A stretch of DNA of 40,661 bases from Planctomycetia bacterium (GTDB taxonomy: Bacteria; Planctomycetota; Planctomycetia; Gemmatales; HRBIN36): contig JAEUIE010000042.1 in NCBI GenBank assembly GCA_016795155.1, positions 1 through 40,661 of the forward strand, in the 5' to 3' direction. The notes under the pieces are model-generated. The model ran no database searches and was not told where the DNA came from. It saw only the letters and a list, made by a program, of their open reading frames with translations. Made by a program: the position numbers and the translations under genes. Shown piece after piece: positions 3,789-40,661 of this stretch; position 1 is the stretch's first letter, and each line of letters starts with the position of its first letter.

Positions 3789-3962
3789 ATGTCAACCATC
3801 TGCCGAAGCATCGTCAACTTCCTGAAAAATGAAGATGGCCCCACTGCTGTGGAATATGCTGTCATGTTGGCCCTGATTATCGTACTCTGTATTGTGGTGA
3901 TTCGACAGGTGGGCACCAGTGCATCAAGTACCTTCAGCACTGCCGACTCTGCCATCAGCTAA
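3789..3962 (+). CDS. flp: Flp-type type IVb pilin 1
   Basis: Structural subunit of Tad/Flp adhesive pili. The 57-residue prepilin has a short charged leader ending in EDG, then PTAVEY. This is the Flp pattern in which the prepilin peptidase cuts after Gly17 and leaves Glu and Tyr as mature residues 5 and 6. One hydrophobic helix follows, with an unusual Cys (VLCIVV), and a Ser/Thr-rich tail. AGGAGAGGA sits just before the ATG, a strong ribosome binding site. It is first of three tandem pilin genes sharing an identical 31-residue core. Its N-terminus (MSTICRSIVNFL) differs from the MKK starts of the next two. Confidence 0.92.
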   Translation: MSTICRSIVNFLKNEDGPTAVEYAVMLALIIVLCIVVIRQVGTSASSTFSTADSAIS

Positions 3963-4037
3963 CGACAAAACACTCGCCCAAGACGCCCATCAAGAATTCG
4001 CCTAATCCTTTTATATGGTGTTGTTCAGGAGAAAGTC

Positions 4038-4217
4038 ATGAAGAAGTATCTGTCCGCGATCAGCCGTTTCATCAAGAATGAAGACGGCCCCACTGCAGTG
4101 GAATACGCTGTGATGCTGGCTTTGATCATCGTGCTCTGCATCGTGGTCATCCGCCAGGTTGGAACGAGTTCATCGGCTACCTTCAGCCGTTCCGACTCAG
4201 CCATCTCCACGAGCTAG
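4038..4217 (+). CDS. flp: Flp-type type IVb pilin 2
   Basis: Second tandem pilin, 59 residues. It has an MKK leader, the EDG/PTAVEY processing site after residue 17, the same hydrophobic core with the internal Cys as its neighbours, and a tail (SSSATFSRSDSAISTS) two residues longer than the others. AGGAG precedes the ATG. It starts 75 bases after the stop of pilin 1, with no terminator between them, so the pilins are probably co-transcribed. The product would be matured by the peptidase encoded at 4689 and assembled into the pilus shaft or act as a minor variant. Which of the three is the major subunit cannot be told from sequence. Confidence 0.92.
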   Translation: MKKYLSAISRFIKNEDGPTAVEYAVMLALIIVLCIVVIRQVGTSSSATFSRSDSAISTS

Positions 4218-4339
4218 TTATAAACTGTTTCGCCCCCGAGCGGGAGCAGATGGATTCGGGGAAAGTCCACTGTTACTTACTTAAGCATTTTCCCCGTGTC
4301 CTGTGAGTTAATCTCACGTTTTTCACCAAGGAGTTTTTC

Positions 4340-4513
4340 ATGAAGAAGTGTCTCAACGCCATCAAGCGATTCATTAAGAACGAAGATGGTCCAACCGCTG
4401 TTGAATACGCAGTCATGCTGGCTCTGATCATCGTGCTTTGCATCGTGGTCATCCGCCAGGTAGGTACCAGCGCAAGCCGTACCTTCAGCACTGCTGATTC
4501 CGCTATCTCCTAG
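4340..4513 (+). CDS. flp: Flp-type type IVb pilin 3
   Basis: Third tandem pilin, 57 residues. It has the MKK leader, the EDG/PTAVEY processing site, the shared core and a tail nearly identical to pilin 1 (SASRTFSTADSAIS versus SASSTFSTADSAIS). AAGGAG precedes the ATG. The gap from pilin 2 is 122 bases. A strong intrinsic terminator 18 bases after the stop closes the pilin transcript, so the pilins can be made in large excess over the assembly proteins encoded downstream. Synonymous differences from pilin 2 are scattered while the protein core is unchanged, which suggests purifying selection on the core. Confidence 0.92.
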   Translation: MKKCLNAIKRFIKNEDGPTAVEYAVMLALIIVLCIVVIRQVGTSASRTFSTADSAIS

Positions 4514-4531
4514 TGCCCAGCTGGGAAACAC

Positions 4532-4577
4532 GAACAAGCAGCTTTTCACTCTGGTGGAAAGCTGCTTGTTCTGTTTT
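4532..4577 (+). terminator. intrinsic terminator after the flp pilin genes
   Basis: A 14-bp perfect stem (GAACAAGCAGCTTT at 4532-4545 pairing with 4558-4571) with a 12-base loop is followed by TGTTTT. This is the clearest classical terminator in the left half of the window and separates the pilins from the prepilin peptidase gene. Confidence 0.9.
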
Positions 4578-4688
4578 AACAGTCCCAGATTCTTCTCTCA
4601 AAATAATAGCCAAAAATTATTGGCAACCACTCGTTCTGTGACCTAGCATTCTGCTACAATCAGGTATCTTTTCGCCCAAGATCCACTT

Positions 4689-5393
4689 ATGAACACTTTT
4701 TCCATGTTTGCATCTTTTCCTGCAGAGAAAACCTGGCTCATTATCATGCTCTCAGTAGCCATGATCGTGATGGCCGTCGTGGACTTCAAATATCTGAAGA
4801 TTCACAACGTACTTACTTTTCCAGTAATATTTGCTGGCTGGCTGTTTGCCCTGGTAAATGGCTTCATGAATGGCGCTGATATTGAGATGTATCTGCCTAC
4901 CCATTGGCTCGGAATGAACAAATTGATCATGTTTGAGCTTCACGGAGGAATCGGCGGTGCTGTCCAAGGATTATGGCATTCACTGGGACTTTCATTCCTC
5001 GGTCTTGGATTATTGGTTTGGTTATACGCAATTGGTGGGGTTGGCGCAGGTGATGTTAAGATGCAGATGGGTTTTGGTGCCTGGGTCGCCCCCATCTACG
5101 GATGGGAAGCAGGGTTGGACATTGTTATCTGGGGATGGATCTTTGGGGTAATTGTCGGCGGCGTTATTTCGTCTATCATGATTTGGTGGAGTGGATCATA
5201 TAAGCAAAATGCCAAGAATTTAACTAATATTGTCTCGGATTGGGTGAACGCTAAGGGAATTGGTGAAATTCACGATAAAGCCATGGCGCGAAAGCCGTCA
5301 TTGCAACTTCTTCCTTACGGCGTGCCACTTTGTATTGGATACTTGGCTTATGTTGCCTGGGACTGGTATCAATCCATGCCTGTAGCATCGTAA
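4689..5393 (+). CDS. prepilin peptidase of the Tad/Flp system (TadV/CpaA-like)
   Basis: A24-family aspartic membrane protease that removes the leader from Flp prepilins at the inner membrane. The 234-residue protein has about six hydrophobic segments and both catalytic aspartates. D32 is in VVDFKYLKIHN, just after the first span, and D122 is in GVGAGDVKM, the G-x-G-D signature. It lacks the N-terminal methyltransferase domain of PilD, as expected for TadV/CpaA. The length exceeds typical short TadV (about 150-170) because of a loop around 60-85 and an extended C-terminus. It lies downstream of its likely substrates (three pilins) and upstream of cpaB. No clear ribosome binding site is seen before the ATG. 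Confidence 0.9.
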   Translation: MNTFSMFASFPAEKTWLIIMLSVAMIVMAVVDFKYLKIHNVLTFPVIFAGWLFALVNGFMNGADIEMYLPTHWLGMNKLIMFELHGGIGGAVQGLWHSLGLSFLGLGLLVWLYAIGGVGAGDVKMQMGFGAWVAPIYGWEAGLDIVIWGWIFGVIVGGVISSIMIWWSGSYKQNAKNLTNIVSDWVNAKGIGEIHDKAMARKPSLQLLPYGVPLCIGYLAYVAWDWYQSMPVAS

Positions 5394-22153: not shown

Positions 22154-22366
22154 CTAATTAACACCCACAGCGATACCGCCACGAGCTTTCAGCACCGCGG
22201 GAATACCACTGGGTGGCGTACCCTGAAGCTCTTCACGTACGATGTGCACTTGAGCAGGTGCTTCAATGCCCAAGCGTACTTGACCGTTTTTGAGGGAAAC
22301 AACACTTACAACAATGTTGTCGTCAATGACTATTCGCTGACCAGGCCGTCGGGTGAGAACAAGCAT
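22154..22366 (-). CDS. csrA: carbon storage regulator CsrA
   Basis: Small RNA-binding dimer that binds GGA motifs in mRNA leaders and controls translation and stability. From ATG 22366 the protein has 70 residues: MLVLTRRPGQRIVI, then RLGIEAPAQVHIVREEL with the RNA-binding IVREE. A 22-residue tail (GTPPSGIPAVLKARGGIAVG...) is longer than in E. coli CsrA (61 residues). AAGGAAG lies seven bases before the ATG. That GGA in the ribosome binding site could be a CsrA target (inference). No fliW or flagellar gene is adjacent. The 328-base upstream gap carries the palindrome shared with clpX. Confidence 0.96.
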   Translation of the reverse strand: MLVLTRRPGQRIVIDDNIVVSVVSLKNGQVRLGIEAPAQVHIVREELQGTPPSGIPAVLKARGGIAVGVN

Positions 22367-22694
22367 GATTGCACTTCCTTGCACAAGAGACTGGTAATGT
22401 TTGCTGATATGAATCTAGCAGCAACAAGAGTGCCAAGGCATCCATGAATTGGCATATTAGTTGTTTTTGTAGCAATCGCTGGGAGAACGGCTAGGGATGC
22501 CTCATTACTCCCATGGTGAACATGAAATAGTTTCAATTTGTACACTACTGTACATGAGAAACTCTTACAAGCATGTTGCACCTTGCTACAATCGATTGCT
22601 GCAATTCAAGTCTGTTGCTTGCAGTTACCGATATATATTATTCGCATTTGACACTGGTTTTGTTTCGCTGACCGTAAAGTTATTGTGAATTCCT
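22367..22694. other. 328-base non-coding region upstream of csrA
   Basis: No gene seen on either strand. It holds the csrA ribosome binding site, a weak 5-bp inverted pair (GCCAA at 22429-22433 with TTGGC at 22448-22452) and the 16-base palindrome at 22538-22553. The part near 22640-22694 is A+T-rich. The length suggests a long csrA leader or a complex promoter, but no convincing -10/-35 pair was identified on the minus strand. Confidence 0.4.
22538..22553. promoter_or_regulatory. 16-base palindromic site upstream of csrA (copy 2)
   Basis: Reads TTGTACACTACTGTAC on the plus strand, identical to the site upstream of clpX (there on the minus strand). It extends one further base to a perfect TGTACA-CTAC-TGTACA arrangement. 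It lies 172-187 bases before the csrA start and inside a non-coding region. No known consensus fits; see the finding on this site. Confidence 0.4.
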
Positions 22695-35572: not shown

Positions 35573-36676
35573 ATGTCCATCGTTCACGTTCATCTGGGAC
35601 CTCGCAGTTACAACATACACATTGGATGTAATCTGGAAGAAAATCTTGCCCAGTACTTCCCTGCAGGCTCGCGAAGTGCAAAAGTTTGCTTAATCACCGA
35701 TCAGAATTCCAAGGTTCATGCACAACTGGTTGCATCGTTGCTTGAAAAAAATGGCGTCATCACGAGACTTGTTTGCCTGCCTGCCGGGGAAGATCAGAAA
35801 TGTCTCGCGACGCTTTCCCGCCTGTACGATGAATTGGTCGAATTCAAAGCAGATCGCCAAACGATCGTTGCAGCAGTTGGTGGTGGTGTAATCGGCGACT
35901 TGGCTGGGTTCGCAGCTGCTACTTTCAATCGTGGCATTCGACTTCTCATGATACCAACTACCCTGCTGGCTATGGTGGACAGCAGCGTGGGCGGCAAAGT
36001 TGGAATCAATCATCCAAAAGGCAAGAATCTGATCGGCGCCTTTCATCAGCCTATGGGTGTGGTAATTCACCTCCCTTTTCTGCAAACACTACCTGATAGA
36101 GAGTTTTGCAGTGGGTTGGCTGAAGTCGTGAAATATGGCATGATTATGGATGAAGCATTCTTCCGATGGCTGACTCATGCTGGTACCGATTGGCGGAATA
36201 CCACGATTGTGGAGCACATAGTGGAAACCAGTTGCAGACATAAGGCAACGGTAGTTCAGGAAGATGAGTATGAGACAAACGGTTTACGTGCCATCTTGAA
36301 TTTTGGTCACACGTTTGCCCACGCAATCGAAACCGTTGCCGGCTATGGCACACTGCTTCATGGCGAAGCTGTTGCAATCGGAATGGTGGCAGCCTGCAGA
36401 ACTGCTGTTCGCATGAACTGGTTTTCAGAGCGAGAAATAGATGAGTGCCTGATACCCCTTCTTCAGAGTATGCACCTGCCGATCAGATTGCAGAACAACT
36501 GGTCTGTTGATTCGTTATTATCGACCATGAAACATGATAAGAAAAATATACATGGTCAATTACGGCTGGTGCTGCCCAGATGGATCGGGAAGGTAGAATC
36601 TGGAGTGGAGGTTGATGAAGGCCTCGTCAGGGAAGTGTTGGCAACCAGATTGGCAGGCCCCCATGAACTGGGATGA
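35573..36676 (+). CDS. aroB: 3-dehydroquinate synthase
   Basis: Second step of the shikimate pathway: converts DAHP to 3-dehydroquinate using NAD and a divalent metal. The 367-residue product shows VAAVGGGVIGDLAGFAAATF with the NAD-binding glycines. It then has TTLLAMVDSSVGGKVGIN, the metal ligands Glu in LAEVVKYG, His in FGHTFAHAIE and His in LLHGEAVAIGM, in family order. Its last 14 bases overlap the start of dprA. The gene heads a tight aroB-dprA-amidohydrolase run and belongs to the same pathway as aroC at 19733. Confidence 0.97.
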   Translation: MSIVHVHLGPRSYNIHIGCNLEENLAQYFPAGSRSAKVCLITDQNSKVHAQLVASLLEKNGVITRLVCLPAGEDQKCLATLSRLYDELVEFKADRQTIVAAVGGGVIGDLAGFAAATFNRGIRLLMIPTTLLAMVDSSVGGKVGINHPKGKNLIGAFHQPMGVVIHLPFLQTLPDREFCSGLAEVVKYGMIMDEAFFRWLTHAGTDWRNTTIVEHIVETSCRHKATVVQEDEYETNGLRAILNFGHTFAHAIETVAGYGTLLHGEAVAIGMVAACRTAVRMNWFSEREIDECLIPLLQSMHLPIRLQNNWSVDSLLSTMKHDKKNIHGQLRLVLPRWIGKVESGVEVDEGLVREVLATRLAGPHELG

Positions 36677-37805
36677 GGAAACCCTGGCCCGATTGAAACT
36701 GCACCTGCTGCCAGGTCTTGGCCCTAAGACACTGGCTGCACTGCTTGATCGTTTCAAGACAGCTCAATATATCCTGCAAACACCTACCGATGAATTGATG
36801 ACTGTTACTCACATTGGCCAGAAAACTGCTGAACAACTTACCTCAGCTATTTCCAGAATAGATATTCAGAAGGAATTGAATCTGGTTAAACAGCACCACG
36901 CAACACTTCTGCATCTGGATCATCCTGATTATCCTGCGTTGTTAAAAAGTATTCCTACTGCTCCGTTCTTTCTGTTTTGTCGTGGTGCGTTCACTGCAGC
37001 GGATAGCCAATCGGTAGCAATCGTGGGATCGCGCCACTGTACCGCCTACGGAAAACGAATTGCCACCAGGCTCGCCACAGGATTAGCAAAGGCAGGATGG
37101 ACGATTGTCAGTGGATTAGCCCGAGGTATTGATGGAATTGCCCACACCGCAGCCTTGGAAGCGGGCGGACGAACCGTTGCCGTCCTGGCAGGTGGCCTGG
37201 CTAAAATCTATCCTCCGGAACATAAAGACCTGGCTGAGCGTGTTATCGAGCGTGGAGTTCTTATCAGCGAAATGCCGATGGGAATGTCTCCCATGCCCGA
37301 CTTGTTCCCACGCCGCAATCGTATCATCAGTGGCTTGAGCCGGGCGGTAATTATTGTGGAAGCAGCCACTCGGAGCGGAGCATTGATAACGGCGCGACTG
37401 GCTGGAGAGCAAGGCCGCGAAGTACTGGCTGTACCGGGCCTCATCGACAGCGAAGCCAGTGAAGGCCCTCATCAACTCATCCGCCAGGGTGCCACTTTGA
37501 TTCGTTCCGTAGATGATGTCCTGGAAGCATTGAATGCATTGCCTGCCATTGAGGATGACACCATCGAGACTGCTGCTTCATCACAAACTGAAACAGTGAC
37601 CAAGAAGAAACCTGATGATCCGCCAGCTAATCTTTCCTCCATACAGTTGCAGCTTTGGAATGCGATGGGAAGCGAAAGTGCCCTGGTAGATGAACTGGTT
37701 GCACAAACCTCGCTCGGCATTTCCGATATCAACAGTTCCCTCCTCATGATGGAACTATCAGGGCATATTCGGCGATTACCTGGTAATCGCTTTGCCAGGA
37801 AATGA
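36663..37805 (+). CDS. dprA: DNA-processing protein DprA
   Basis: Binds incoming single-stranded DNA during natural transformation and loads RecA. From ATG 36663 the product has 380 residues. A helix-hairpin-helix (LLPGLGPKTLAALLDRF) is followed by the Rossmann-like DprA core: VAIVGSRHCTAYGKR, VSGLARGIDGIAHTAAL, FPRRNRIISGLSRAV and EAATRSGALITARLA. A C-terminal winged-helix DML1-like domain (about 325-380) closes the protein. The start overlaps aroB by 14 bases, so translation is probably coupled. An earlier in-frame ATG at 36612 would lengthen the overlap and is unlikely. The Tad-type pilus is the only appendage seen here, and no other competence gene is present. Confidence 0.95.
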   Translation: MNWDEETLARLKLHLLPGLGPKTLAALLDRFKTAQYILQTPTDELMTVTHIGQKTAEQLTSAISRIDIQKELNLVKQHHATLLHLDHPDYPALLKSIPTAPFFLFCRGAFTAADSQSVAIVGSRHCTAYGKRIATRLATGLAKAGWTIVSGLARGIDGIAHTAALEAGGRTVAVLAGGLAKIYPPEHKDLAERVIERGVLISEMPMGMSPMPDLFPRRNRIISGLSRAVIIVEAATRSGALITARLAGEQGREVLAVPGLIDSEASEGPHQLIRQGATLIRSVDDVLEALNALPAIEDDTIETAASSQTETVTKKKPDDPPANLSSIQLQLWNAMGSESALVDELVAQTSLGISDINSSLLMMELSGHIRRLPGNRFARK

Positions 37806-37808
37806 CCC

Positions 37809-38942
37809 ATGACCATCTACCGAGCAGACTGGGTCTTCACAGGGTTAAGTGAACCTATTCGACATGGTGTTGTTGAGGTGGAAGGTGATCGAATAGTTCG
37901 TATCGCTCCCTGGAATCATGAACACATCGATGTTGATTTTGGTCAGTCACTCATTATTCCTGGCCTGATCAATGCCCATACTCATCTTGATCTTGGTGAA
38001 CTCCACAACCAACTTGCACCACCTGCCCAATTCACAGACTGGCTGAAACAGGTCATTTCGTATCGAATGTCCAGCAAGCATGAAAATTGGGATGCAGCCA
38101 TCCGTGCAGGCATCAGCCAAAGCCTGCAATCGGGAACTATGCATCTTGGCGATATCAGCGTGGGCGGACGCAGCGCTTCACTTCTTCAACAAGCTTCTTG
38201 TCGGGCTCAAGTCTATTTCGAACTTATCGGCTTGACTGACGAACGCACGGATCAGGCCTTGCTACAAGCCGATGCATGGCTCGCTTCCAGGCATGATAAT
38301 ATCATTCATGCACTTAGCCCGCACGCCCCATATTCGGTTTCACGCAGGCTGCTCACAACTCTGCGCGACAAATATCCTCATGTGCCTGTTGCCATACATG
38401 TTGCAGAAACCCGCGAAGAGTTGCAATTACTGGAAACTCATCAAGGCCCATTTAAGGAGTTCTTGCAATCCATCAACGCCTGGCAACCTGATAATCTCTT
38501 TCGGTCTATTGATGAGGTCATCGACGTCCTGAACGGCTTCGATCAGGCATATCTCATTCATGGCAACTACCTGAATCGTGAACAATGGCAGAAGTTGGGA
38601 AATGGCATTACGGTTGTTTATTGCCCGCGCACCCATGCCTACTTTGGGCATGACACTCATCCCTATCTCGACATGTTCGCTGACGGAGTCAAGATAGCAT
38701 TGGGAACCGACAGCCTGGCTTCCAATCCTGATCTAAGCGTTCTGAATGAGTGTCGATTTCTCTGGAAACGGGATAAAAGCAGACTCAATGGTAACACTTT
38801 GCTGAACCTGGTCAGCAAGCCCTTTATTCCTGGTTCACTGTCTCATTTTGTGGTGTTTCTTCATAACAATTGCTCGACTGATCCCTGGGAATTGCTTTGG
38901 GGGTATGATTCTGAACTAAAAAGACTATTACCATCAACATGA
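37809..38942 (+). CDS. amidohydrolase, MTA/SAH or aminodeoxyfutalosine deaminase-like
   Basis: The 377-residue protein has the metal-dependent amidohydrolase motifs NAHTHLDL (HxH), IHVAETREE (His and catalytic Glu), LIHGNYL (His) and LGTDSLASN (Asp). These fit the cytosine/adenosine deaminase-like subgroup that contains methylthioadenosine/SAH deaminase, chlorohydrolases and aminodeoxyfutalosine deaminase (MqnX). Which purine derivative is used cannot be read from sequence. A futalosine menaquinone pathway would need mqnA/B/C/D, absent here. The gene starts three bases after dprA and ends the operon; the next strong terminator is 305 bases further on. Confidence 0.85.
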   Translation: MTIYRADWVFTGLSEPIRHGVVEVEGDRIVRIAPWNHEHIDVDFGQSLIIPGLINAHTHLDLGELHNQLAPPAQFTDWLKQVISYRMSSKHENWDAAIRAGISQSLQSGTMHLGDISVGGRSASLLQQASCRAQVYFELIGLTDERTDQALLQADAWLASRHDNIIHALSPHAPYSVSRRLLTTLRDKYPHVPVAIHVAETREELQLLETHQGPFKEFLQSINAWQPDNLFRSIDEVIDVLNGFDQAYLIHGNYLNREQWQKLGNGITVVYCPRTHAYFGHDTHPYLDMFADGVKIALGTDSLASNPDLSVLNECRFLWKRDKSRLNGNTLLNLVSKPFIPGSLSHFVVFLHNNCSTDPWELLWGYDSELKRLLPST

Positions 38943-39066
38943 CGTAACTTATTACCCACAAACAAGTAGTAGCTACACCCTTCTAAATTAATCAACATTT
39001 TCTGCATTATTTCTCAAGTAACCTGTCACAATCGCAAGGCAGCCCGCTCTAGGCTTACAGATGAGG

Positions 39067-39310
39067 GATGGCTTGACTACCAACTTCTCTGTTTCGAGTG
39101 TGGGCGGCATAGCAAGTAGTCAAGCCATCTTTCATATCTACCCGAACAACTGTTGAGTTCGTCCAGATCAACAGGTGATTGACCAGGGCGAGTGCCCAGC
39201 TTGAACTGGTCAAAAAGGTGTCGAGGTAACACTCGGCATCGCCTAATAATTCGTCTGGGTCGTTAGCGGATGGGGCGGACAGGCTAACGACTCAGGCGAA
39301 TTACTTTTTT
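39067..39310 (+). ncRNA. candidate structured non-coding RNA (five consecutive hairpins)
   Basis: Hairpin 1: 14-bp perfect stem 39067-39080 with 39116-39129. Hairpin 2: CTGTTGA 39150-39156 with 39168-39174. Hairpin 3: TTGACCAG 39179-39186 with 39206-39213, plus an inner GGC/GCC. Hairpin 4: GGTGTCGAG 39217-39225 with 39232-39240, two G-T pairs. Hairpin 5: the 21-bp terminator stem 39247-39303 followed by T6. Such dense pairing is not expected by chance. No match to RNase P RNA, tmRNA, SRP RNA or 6S RNA signatures was seen. It may be an independent RNA or the structured 3' UTR of the aroB-dprA-amidohydrolase transcript. Confidence 0.45.
39247..39310 (+). terminator. long-stem intrinsic terminator
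   Basis: TAATTCGTCTGGGTCGTTAG plus C (39247-39267) pairs along all 21 positions with 39283-39303, two of the pairs being G-T, around a 15-base loop, followed by C and TTTTTT. This is the longest stem in the window and would end any plus-strand transcript before tRNA-Pro. Confidence 0.88.
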
Positions 39311-39408
39311 GGCATACCGATTTAGCCAGCCTTCGAATTTCATATCTCAATCGCCATACCAATAAATAGTTGACCGCGAACCTGCAGCCGTTAGGATGTA
39401 GCATTGAC

Positions 39409-39483
39409 CGGGCTGTAGCGCAGTTTGGCTAGCGCGCTTGGTTCGGGACCAAGAGGTCGCGGGTTCAAATCCCGCCAGCCCGA
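39409..39483 (+). tRNA. tRNA-Pro (anticodon CGG)
   Basis: A complete cloverleaf can be drawn. The acceptor stem is CGGGCTG (39409-39415) with CAGCCCG (39476-39482) and discriminator A 39483. The anticodon stem is CTTGG/CCAAG with the loop TTCGGGA, giving anticodon CGG at 39444-39446, which reads CCG proline codons. The T arm is GCGGG-TTCAAAT-CCCGC. CCA is not encoded. It sits between a strong terminator and the G+C-rich hydrolase gene. tRNA 3' ends are common integration sites, but no second copy of this one's 3' end is visible in the window. Confidence 0.97.
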
Positions 39484-39547: not shown

Positions 39548-39601
39548 AACTGTTCTACTCTCCAATTCTGATTTGATCAGTTGGCCCAGGCTTCTTTCGC
39601 C

Positions 39602-40447
39602 TTACGGCTTGGCGTTGAGAAAGTCGTTCACCATCGGCACGATGATGGGCATCTTTTGCATCAGCGTGACATGGGTGGCATCGGGCACGATGGCCAACCG
39701 CGATGCGGGGCGAGGCTTGATGTCGCCGTGGATTTCGCCACCCTTGAGGCGGTACATCTCCCCAACGTGTTCGAGTCGGATGCCGTCGGCGTCGCCGTGG
39801 ATGAAGAACATCGGTGCCGTGGTGGCCTTCAGCTTGTCGGCAGTGATGCTGTCCCCTTTGGAAGCTGAGGCGACCATCCGTTTGATGAACGTCGGAAAGG
39901 CGTCCGGCGTCGGGCTCAGCTTCTTGTATTCGGTTTCGAGGGGCGAGCCGATGAAGAGTTCCGCTGTGAGTTTCGCTAACGCCTCTTGCCCTTCCTTGAC
40001 CACGCCGTCGCGACGGAAGTAGGACGAGATGACGACCACCTTCCGCACCTTGTCCGGATGGCGGATCGCACACTGCATCGCCACGCCACCACCCATGCTG
40101 TAGCCGAGGATGTCCGCCTTGGCGATCTTGAGATGATCGAGCAGGGTTGCCACATCGTCAGCCAGGTTCGCCGTGCTGATGTCGCGGTCGATGTCCCCCG
40201 TGCGGCCGTGGCCCTGCATTTCGATGGCGATCACCTTCCGAGTCTTGGCGAGTTCGCCGATCCAACCTGTCCAATTGTTGGTGATGGTCATGAACGAGCC
40301 GTGAAGCAGTACGACTGGGTCGCCACTGCCGTGGACTTCGTAGTACATTTTGAGCCCGTTGACCGGGGCGTAGCCTGTCGTGGGTTGTTGCTGTGCGGAG
40401 GCGAGGGCGGGTAGGAGGAGTGTCAGGAGGAAAGCTGTTGTTTTCAT
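39602..40447 (-). CDS. exported alpha/beta hydrolase, G+C-rich and probably acquired
   Basis: The 281-residue product has a signal peptide ([19 protein letters not shown]) and an alpha/beta-hydrolase fold. VVLLHGSFM forms the oxyanion region, LGYSMGGG holds the nucleophile, the acid is in FIHGDADGI and the His in PDATHVTLM. Activity on small esters or similar substrates is expected; the substrate is unknown. The codons are strongly G/C-ending, unlike the neighbours: in the sample 39661-39720, 40 of 60 bases are G or C. It lies between tRNA-Pro and an IS copy that ends 77 bases before its start, a setting typical of imported DNA. GGGAG precedes the ATG by about 12 bases. Confidence 0.9.
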
Positions 40448-40523
40448 GGTTGGTGTAACTCCCGTTTCGCCGAAACGACACCGTTTGGCTACGTTTTACT
40501 GTGAATGCCGCGGATCGATTCTA

Positions 40524-40661
40524 AGAGCATCTAACAAAAAGAACATTAGAGGAAATAGCCGCAGATGACGATGCACCCGAGTAGCATGAACGCTTCGTGG
40601 ATGTCATCGCGTCGTTCATAGCGAACCCGTAAGCGTCGAAATTGATGTAGCCAACTGATGG
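40524..40661 (-). mobile_element. IS5-family insertion sequence, 3' end fragment (second copy)
   Basis: Exact reverse complement of bases 2-139. The element end (AGAGCATC as read on the plus strand) faces the interior of the window, and the rest of the element runs off the right edge. No mismatch was seen over 138 bases, which indicates recent copies or one collapsed repeat. The flanking base differs from the left copy from the first position after the repeat. Confidence 0.85.
40546..40659 (-). CDS. IS5-family transposase, C-terminal fragment (second copy)
   Basis: Thirty-seven codons plus TAA, identical to codons 2-38 of the fragment at 1-117, with the upstream part lost at the contig edge. 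It contains the same RRLRVRYERRDD segment and GCIVICGYFL end. It is transcribed toward the hydrolase gene, which lies on the same strand, so read-through from the IS could influence that gene's expression (inference). Confidence 0.8.
   Translation of the reverse strand: MSWLHQFRRLRVRYERRDDIHEAFMLLGCIVICGYFL

Follow-up and report, generated by a model that had tools for sequence, protein, structure and literature searches.

Long-stem intrinsic (Rho-independent) terminators have a stem with a U tract immediately behind it, on one strand, and lie after a gene of that strand. A single terminator hairpin suffices for stopping transcription, and a 21-bp stem with a 15-nt loop is long for such an element. 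Bacterial 3' UTR-derived small RNAs are likewise structured 3' portions of mRNAs and end at the terminator of the upstream mRNA; for instance, a small RNA is processed from the sodF 3' UTR in Streptomyces (PMC3919588). At the DNA level, REP/BIME elements are long palindromes, present in many copies in intergenic DNA near gene ends, with GTAG and CGTC super-families and with families described in Planctomycetes (PMC3733652). Finally, the CsrA decoys CsrB, CsrC and RsmZ combine a chain of hairpins with a terminator and carry GGA in most of their loops.

The hairpin chain analysed here can be compared with each of these systems. The window, that is, the whole stretch of DNA that was analysed, is 40,661 bp long and represents one entire contig of the 5.28-Mb genome assembly of an uncultured planctomycete. 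The chain sits in a gap of about 250 bases between an amidohydrolase gene and a tRNA-Pro gene, both on the + strand, in the following arrangement:

35573-36676, + strand: aroB (3-dehydroquinate synthase; Pfam DHQ_synthase and DHQS_C), first gene of the presumed operon
36612-37805, + strand: dprA (DNA recombination-mediator protein A; Pfam DNA_processg_A and DprA_WH)
37809-38942, + strand: amidohydrolase gene (Pfam Amidohydro_1), last protein gene 5' of the hairpins
38943-39055, + strand: AT-rich, unstructured spacer (fold z +1.1), for which the scan gave neither a sigma-70-like promoter nor a terminator
39050-39245, + strand: possible weak outer helix around H1-H4, TAGGC (39050-39054) with GCCTA (39241-39245)
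39061-39135, + strand: H1, 20-bp stem (18 Watson-Crick and 2 G-U pairs), 35-nt loop
39150-39174, + strand: H2, 7-bp stem, 11-nt loop
39179-39213, + strand: H3, 8-bp stem; apical region of 19 nt that may contain an inner stem of 5 bp
39217-39240, + strand: H4, 9-bp stem (7 Watson-Crick and 2 G-U pairs), 6-nt loop
39247-39303, + strand: H5, 21-bp stem (19 Watson-Crick and 2 G-U pairs), 15-nt loop; presumed intrinsic terminator stem
39304-39310, + strand: CTTTTTT, forming the presumed terminator's U tract
39370-39397, + strand: promoter-like site TTGACC-16-TAGGAT preceding the tRNA gene (consensus scan, near chance level)
39409-39483, + strand: tRNA-Pro (CGG), next gene 3' of the chain and sole Rfam-scoring feature of the region

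The five hairpins follow one another at 39061-39303, with 3 to 14 nt between neighbours; their stems measure 20, 7, 8, 9 and 21 bp, and CTTTTTT comes immediately after the last. The original prediction had proposed stems of 14, 7, 8, 9 and 21 bp with a T6 tract at the end of the chain; the tract (TTTTTT after a C, 3' of the H5 stem) and the last four stems agree with our analysis, but the first stem has 20 bp, the 14 bp being limited to its perfect Watson-Crick portion, which two G-U pairs extend. The mean pair probability of all five stems is at least 0.92 at 37 C in every context tried and at least 0.88 at 65 C; that of the outer helix TAGGC/GCCTA is flank-dependent and varies from 0.34 to 0.74. 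The hairpin region is non-coding, as was claimed, with no open reading frame above 53 aa; a small one in H1 (31 aa, 39061-39156) was rejected because coding signs are absent.

The + strand fold of the 271-nt region reaches -120.8 kcal/mol, compared with -79.9 kcal/mol for shuffled sequences (z -7.8), and none of 200 shuffles folded as well. Since H2-H4 on their own give a fold z of -3.9, the two long stems do not account for all the structure. The 117 nt 5' of the chain are unstructured (z +1.1), and structure sets in sharply at about 39056, past the AT-rich spacer. Among 648 segments of the window, the chain has the lowest fold z (-7.6). The assertion that nothing of this density occurs elsewhere in the window is thus nearly right, but two segments come close, one on the - strand in a coding region (33376, z -7.1) and one in the Flp-pilin terminator region (4376-4750, z -6.1). 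A survey of 270-nt hairpin chains by summed stem energy, covering 2.74 Mb or 52% of the genome, also placed the chain first (-90.4, at 51% GC); the next chains (-89.5, -89.3 and -89.0) are wholly or partly coding, and the next non-coding one reaches -85.5. By composition-corrected whole-fold energy, the chain ranked about 20th of 10,892 segments in a 0.44-Mb sample, where most of the higher-ranked regions that were folded proved to be coding segments or lone long hairpins. The chain is extreme in its genome, not unique. A chance accumulation of inverted sequence would be consistent with the close scores of those coding chains, but the shuffles and the top rank in 2.74 Mb despite 51% GC make it the least probable of all the explanations considered. 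As a separate observation, three near-identical short pilin-like reading frames lie in tandem at 3790-4575, 5' of a prepilin-peptidase-like gene, and these Flp-pilin-like genes are followed by a terminator-like hairpin (4532-4571) with an 18-bp stem and a 4-nt loop.

The two strands of the chain are not equivalent. The - strand folds at -99.6 kcal/mol, against -120.8 kcal/mol for the + strand, and the U6 after H5 is present on the + strand only. In a DNA palindrome, G-U and A-C mismatches are expected in equal numbers and, indeed, the 538 other tail-less palindromes of the same genome show no bias (529:532). The interior non-Watson-Crick pairs of the five stems are six G-U, of which H1 and H5 together hold four and H4 two, and no A-C, a bias with a one-sided probability of 1 in 64. 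This evidence is weakened because the stem definition allowed G-U and because one A-C pair lies just outside H5; the earlier argument that G-T pairs favour RNA over DNA palindromes is borne out, with the six-to-none bias modestly favouring a + strand RNA.

The same data bear on a reading of the hairpins as DNA palindromes in an intergenic gap, either REP-like or belonging to a decayed mobile element, with an incidental RNA structure. Like REP/BIME elements, the chain has long palindromes in intergenic DNA near a gene end, and long perfect palindromes are frequent between planctomycete genes: 61 hairpins of at least 18 bp were counted in 506 kb of relatives, leaving aside the stretch that immediately follows the homologous gene. 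Furthermore, H1, which ranks among the longest palindromes in the 1.15 Mb of genome surveyed, has no T tail, and a transposase fragment lies at the contig end, 1.3 kb away. On the other hand, the chain is unrepeated: no second copy of any stem was found in the genome, where the longest other matches are of 15-27 nt with chance E-values, and H1-H5 show no repeat-like resemblance to one another. The irregularities of the stems are G-U and not A-C, a U tract ends the chain, and H2-H4 are ordinary short stems of RNA type. Palindromic DNA is, in our estimate, an unlikely origin of the chain, and a repeat or mobile element was rejected as a candidate because of the single copy in the genome. The transposase fragment (40540-40661), read on the - strand, resembles a DDE transposase C-terminus (DDE_Tnp_1, E 0.004, under the curated cut-off), and an insertion sequence is the probable site of the contig break.

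In agreement with the original prediction of a 21-bp terminator, H5 looks like an intrinsic terminator, presumed as such from its stem and from the U-rich tract that starts within 0-2 nt of it. It departs from common intrinsic terminators in the size of its stem and loop and in the four hairpins that precede it; no other T-tailed hairpin in the surveyed 2.74 Mb of the genome is as long. Among stems of at least 15 bp, 11 of 125 are T-tailed in this genome (background 3.0%) and 8 of 100 in relatives (background 1.9%), the latter including a 21-bp stem with TTTTTT in locus L134. H5 has precedent, since long T-tailed stems are known at 4532-4571 and in other planctomycetes. T-tailed hairpins after genes of this genome are mildly enriched in the sense orientation (39 sense vs 24 antisense).

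The genes preceding the chain are likely to form an operon, because dprA and the amidohydrolase gene are separated by 3 nt and aroB overlaps the listed start of dprA, whose real start may be later, in view of this overlap. The amidohydrolase stop codon lies 118 nt 5' of H1 on the same strand, and neither the promoter/terminator scan nor folding found a hairpin terminator between the two, so operon transcripts should enter the chain and end at H5. Our preferred reading, to which we give about an even chance, is that the aroB-dprA-amidohydrolase transcript has the chain as its structured 3' end, on the + strand, and is terminated by a long-stem intrinsic terminator; this reading is placed above a free small RNA and above incidental palindromes. 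The original prediction had left the choice between a free RNA and a long structured 3' UTR. The latter is the better supported, by the same-strand gene and the absence of an intervening terminator, and the former is weakened by the lack of a sigma-70-like promoter match in the spacer.

According to this 3' UTR reading, RNA polymerase would leave the amidohydrolase gene, cross the unstructured spacer and transcribe the hairpin chain, to be released at H5, where the 21-bp stem precedes U6. H1 and H5 could shield the 3' end against exonucleases and, once the mRNA is degraded, a resistant piece of about 250 nt would perhaps persist as a separate RNA. What is shown is the fold with its statistical significance and location, plus the U tract; transcription, release at H5, a common transcript with the operon and stabilisation are inferred. 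The predicted promoter-like site suggests that the tRNA-Pro gene 3' of the chain is transcribed separately. A leader of a downstream gene was rejected as an explanation, as only this tRNA follows on the + strand. The arrangement resembles that of 3' UTR-derived small RNAs, with a predicted 3' end common to the upstream mRNA and the chain, though the latter is longer and more structured than is typical of them. The mild sense enrichment, the lack of a conserved counterpart in relatives and the stem and loop of H5, long for a terminator, count against the 3' UTR reading; moreover, since one terminator hairpin suffices, H1-H4 are unexplained by termination.

A rival reading is a separate orphan small RNA, roughly 250 nt long, which would have its own promoter in 38943-39060 and the H5 terminator and would act via loops or protein binding. 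In its favour, H2-H4 are significant alone and unnecessary for termination, structure sets in sharply at about 39056, past the spacer, and the weak outer helix would close H1-H4 as one domain. However, no sigma-70-like promoter with 9 of 12 matches was found 5' of H1, although promoters of this lineage may differ from the sigma-70 consensus, Hfq was not found in the genome, and no homologue was detected in any genome searched. We hold this small RNA to be possible, on a tentative basis. Its stronger version, a free-standing multi-hairpin noncoding RNA of about 250 nt that would belong to an undescribed class confined to this uncultured genus, be transcribed from a promoter of its own and act in trans, appears doubtful.

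A decoy RNA for CsrA, of the CsrB/RsmZ type, was also considered. The host encodes two csrA genes, one in the window (22154-22384, - strand; Pfam CsrA, 76 bits) and one on contig C27, and the chain shares with these RNAs the layout of several hairpins with a terminator, including two GGA in the H5 loop. Unlike CsrB, CsrC and RsmZ, it has only three GGA in the whole RNA, the third being in the H1 stem, and among the five loops that of H5 alone carries the motif, which makes a decoy role very improbable.

Searches for related sequences gave no homologue. Rfam matched no family at gathering score, the tRNA alone scoring, in line with the earlier remark that no known abundant RNA was recognisable; a permissive search returned sub-threshold chance matches only, e.g. 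microRNA models on H1. At the nucleotide level, nothing or chance matches only came from the chain's own genome, from 60 relatives, from 398 genomes of the class and from phages and plasmids, and the exact H1 and H5 patterns gave no match in viral contigs. Sequence and covariance-model searches detected no homologue of the chain among 7 genomes of its family, 102 of its order and up to 398 of its class. The model, built from the single chain sequence, had no match in the family; its best matches (L156 and L134), obtained with the order and with 80 amidohydrolase loci, were discarded as lone long hairpins with a T-rich tail, unrelated to the chain.

Among all collections searched, the chain was found in one genome only, and the proposal of a new structured RNA, in the sense of a class, is not supported: no homologous region was found in relatives, an outcome that the original prediction had named as refuting. 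The genomes found by a search with the adjacent protein were planctomycetes, mainly Gemmataceae and metagenome-assembled Gemmatales, and the amidohydrolase is 36-40% identical over the alignment in the nearest relatives searched; an alignment-based protein search gave 80 planctomycete-type amidohydrolase loci, all at most 45% identical. Since the family members searched belong to other genera at 36-40% protein identity, absence in the family is expected for most non-coding sequence. Missing homologues count weakly, because the genomes searched include no close relative and an orphan offers no alignment in which stem covariation could show. The chain is an orphan element, a good candidate rather than a new class. 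It is a clean structured-RNA candidate in a lineage with little RNA work as far as our searches showed and, if transcribed, would either reveal how very long stems serve the organism in ending or stabilising mRNAs or provide an orphan small RNA. One unconserved locus does not settle larger questions.

The search 3' of the homologous gene found no conserved counterpart in relatives, some of which have single hairpins of 22-31 bp directly after the amidohydrolase gene; a conserved hairpin at this position was dropped as a candidate because such long hairpins are widespread elsewhere in the same loci. Planctomycete intergenic regions frequently carry near-perfect hairpins of 22-31 bp right past a stop codon, as seen after the amidohydrolase gene in L095, L112, L085, L111, L086, L146, L098 and L078. 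Some of these hairpins have recurring cores, e.g. CAGGCTTTCCAGCCTG, and they look like REP-type repeats. The genome of the chain itself contains, at L191:8329-8419 and L170:661-923, two copies of a paired-hairpin repeat (GCCATGCTCACC... and CCATGCCCGCC...), the end of the L170 copy being overlapped by a group II intron match.

Two further observations concern the flanks of the chain. At 38780-38942, the amidohydrolase is short of about 10-20 C-terminal residues and of one internal stretch present in relatives, and the 3' end of its gene may have been remodelled beside the hairpins. Right past tRNA-Pro, at 39560-40450, an alpha/beta hydrolase gene (- strand) lies in DNA with 60-62% G+C, up from about 48%, and this DNA beside the tRNA gene was possibly acquired.
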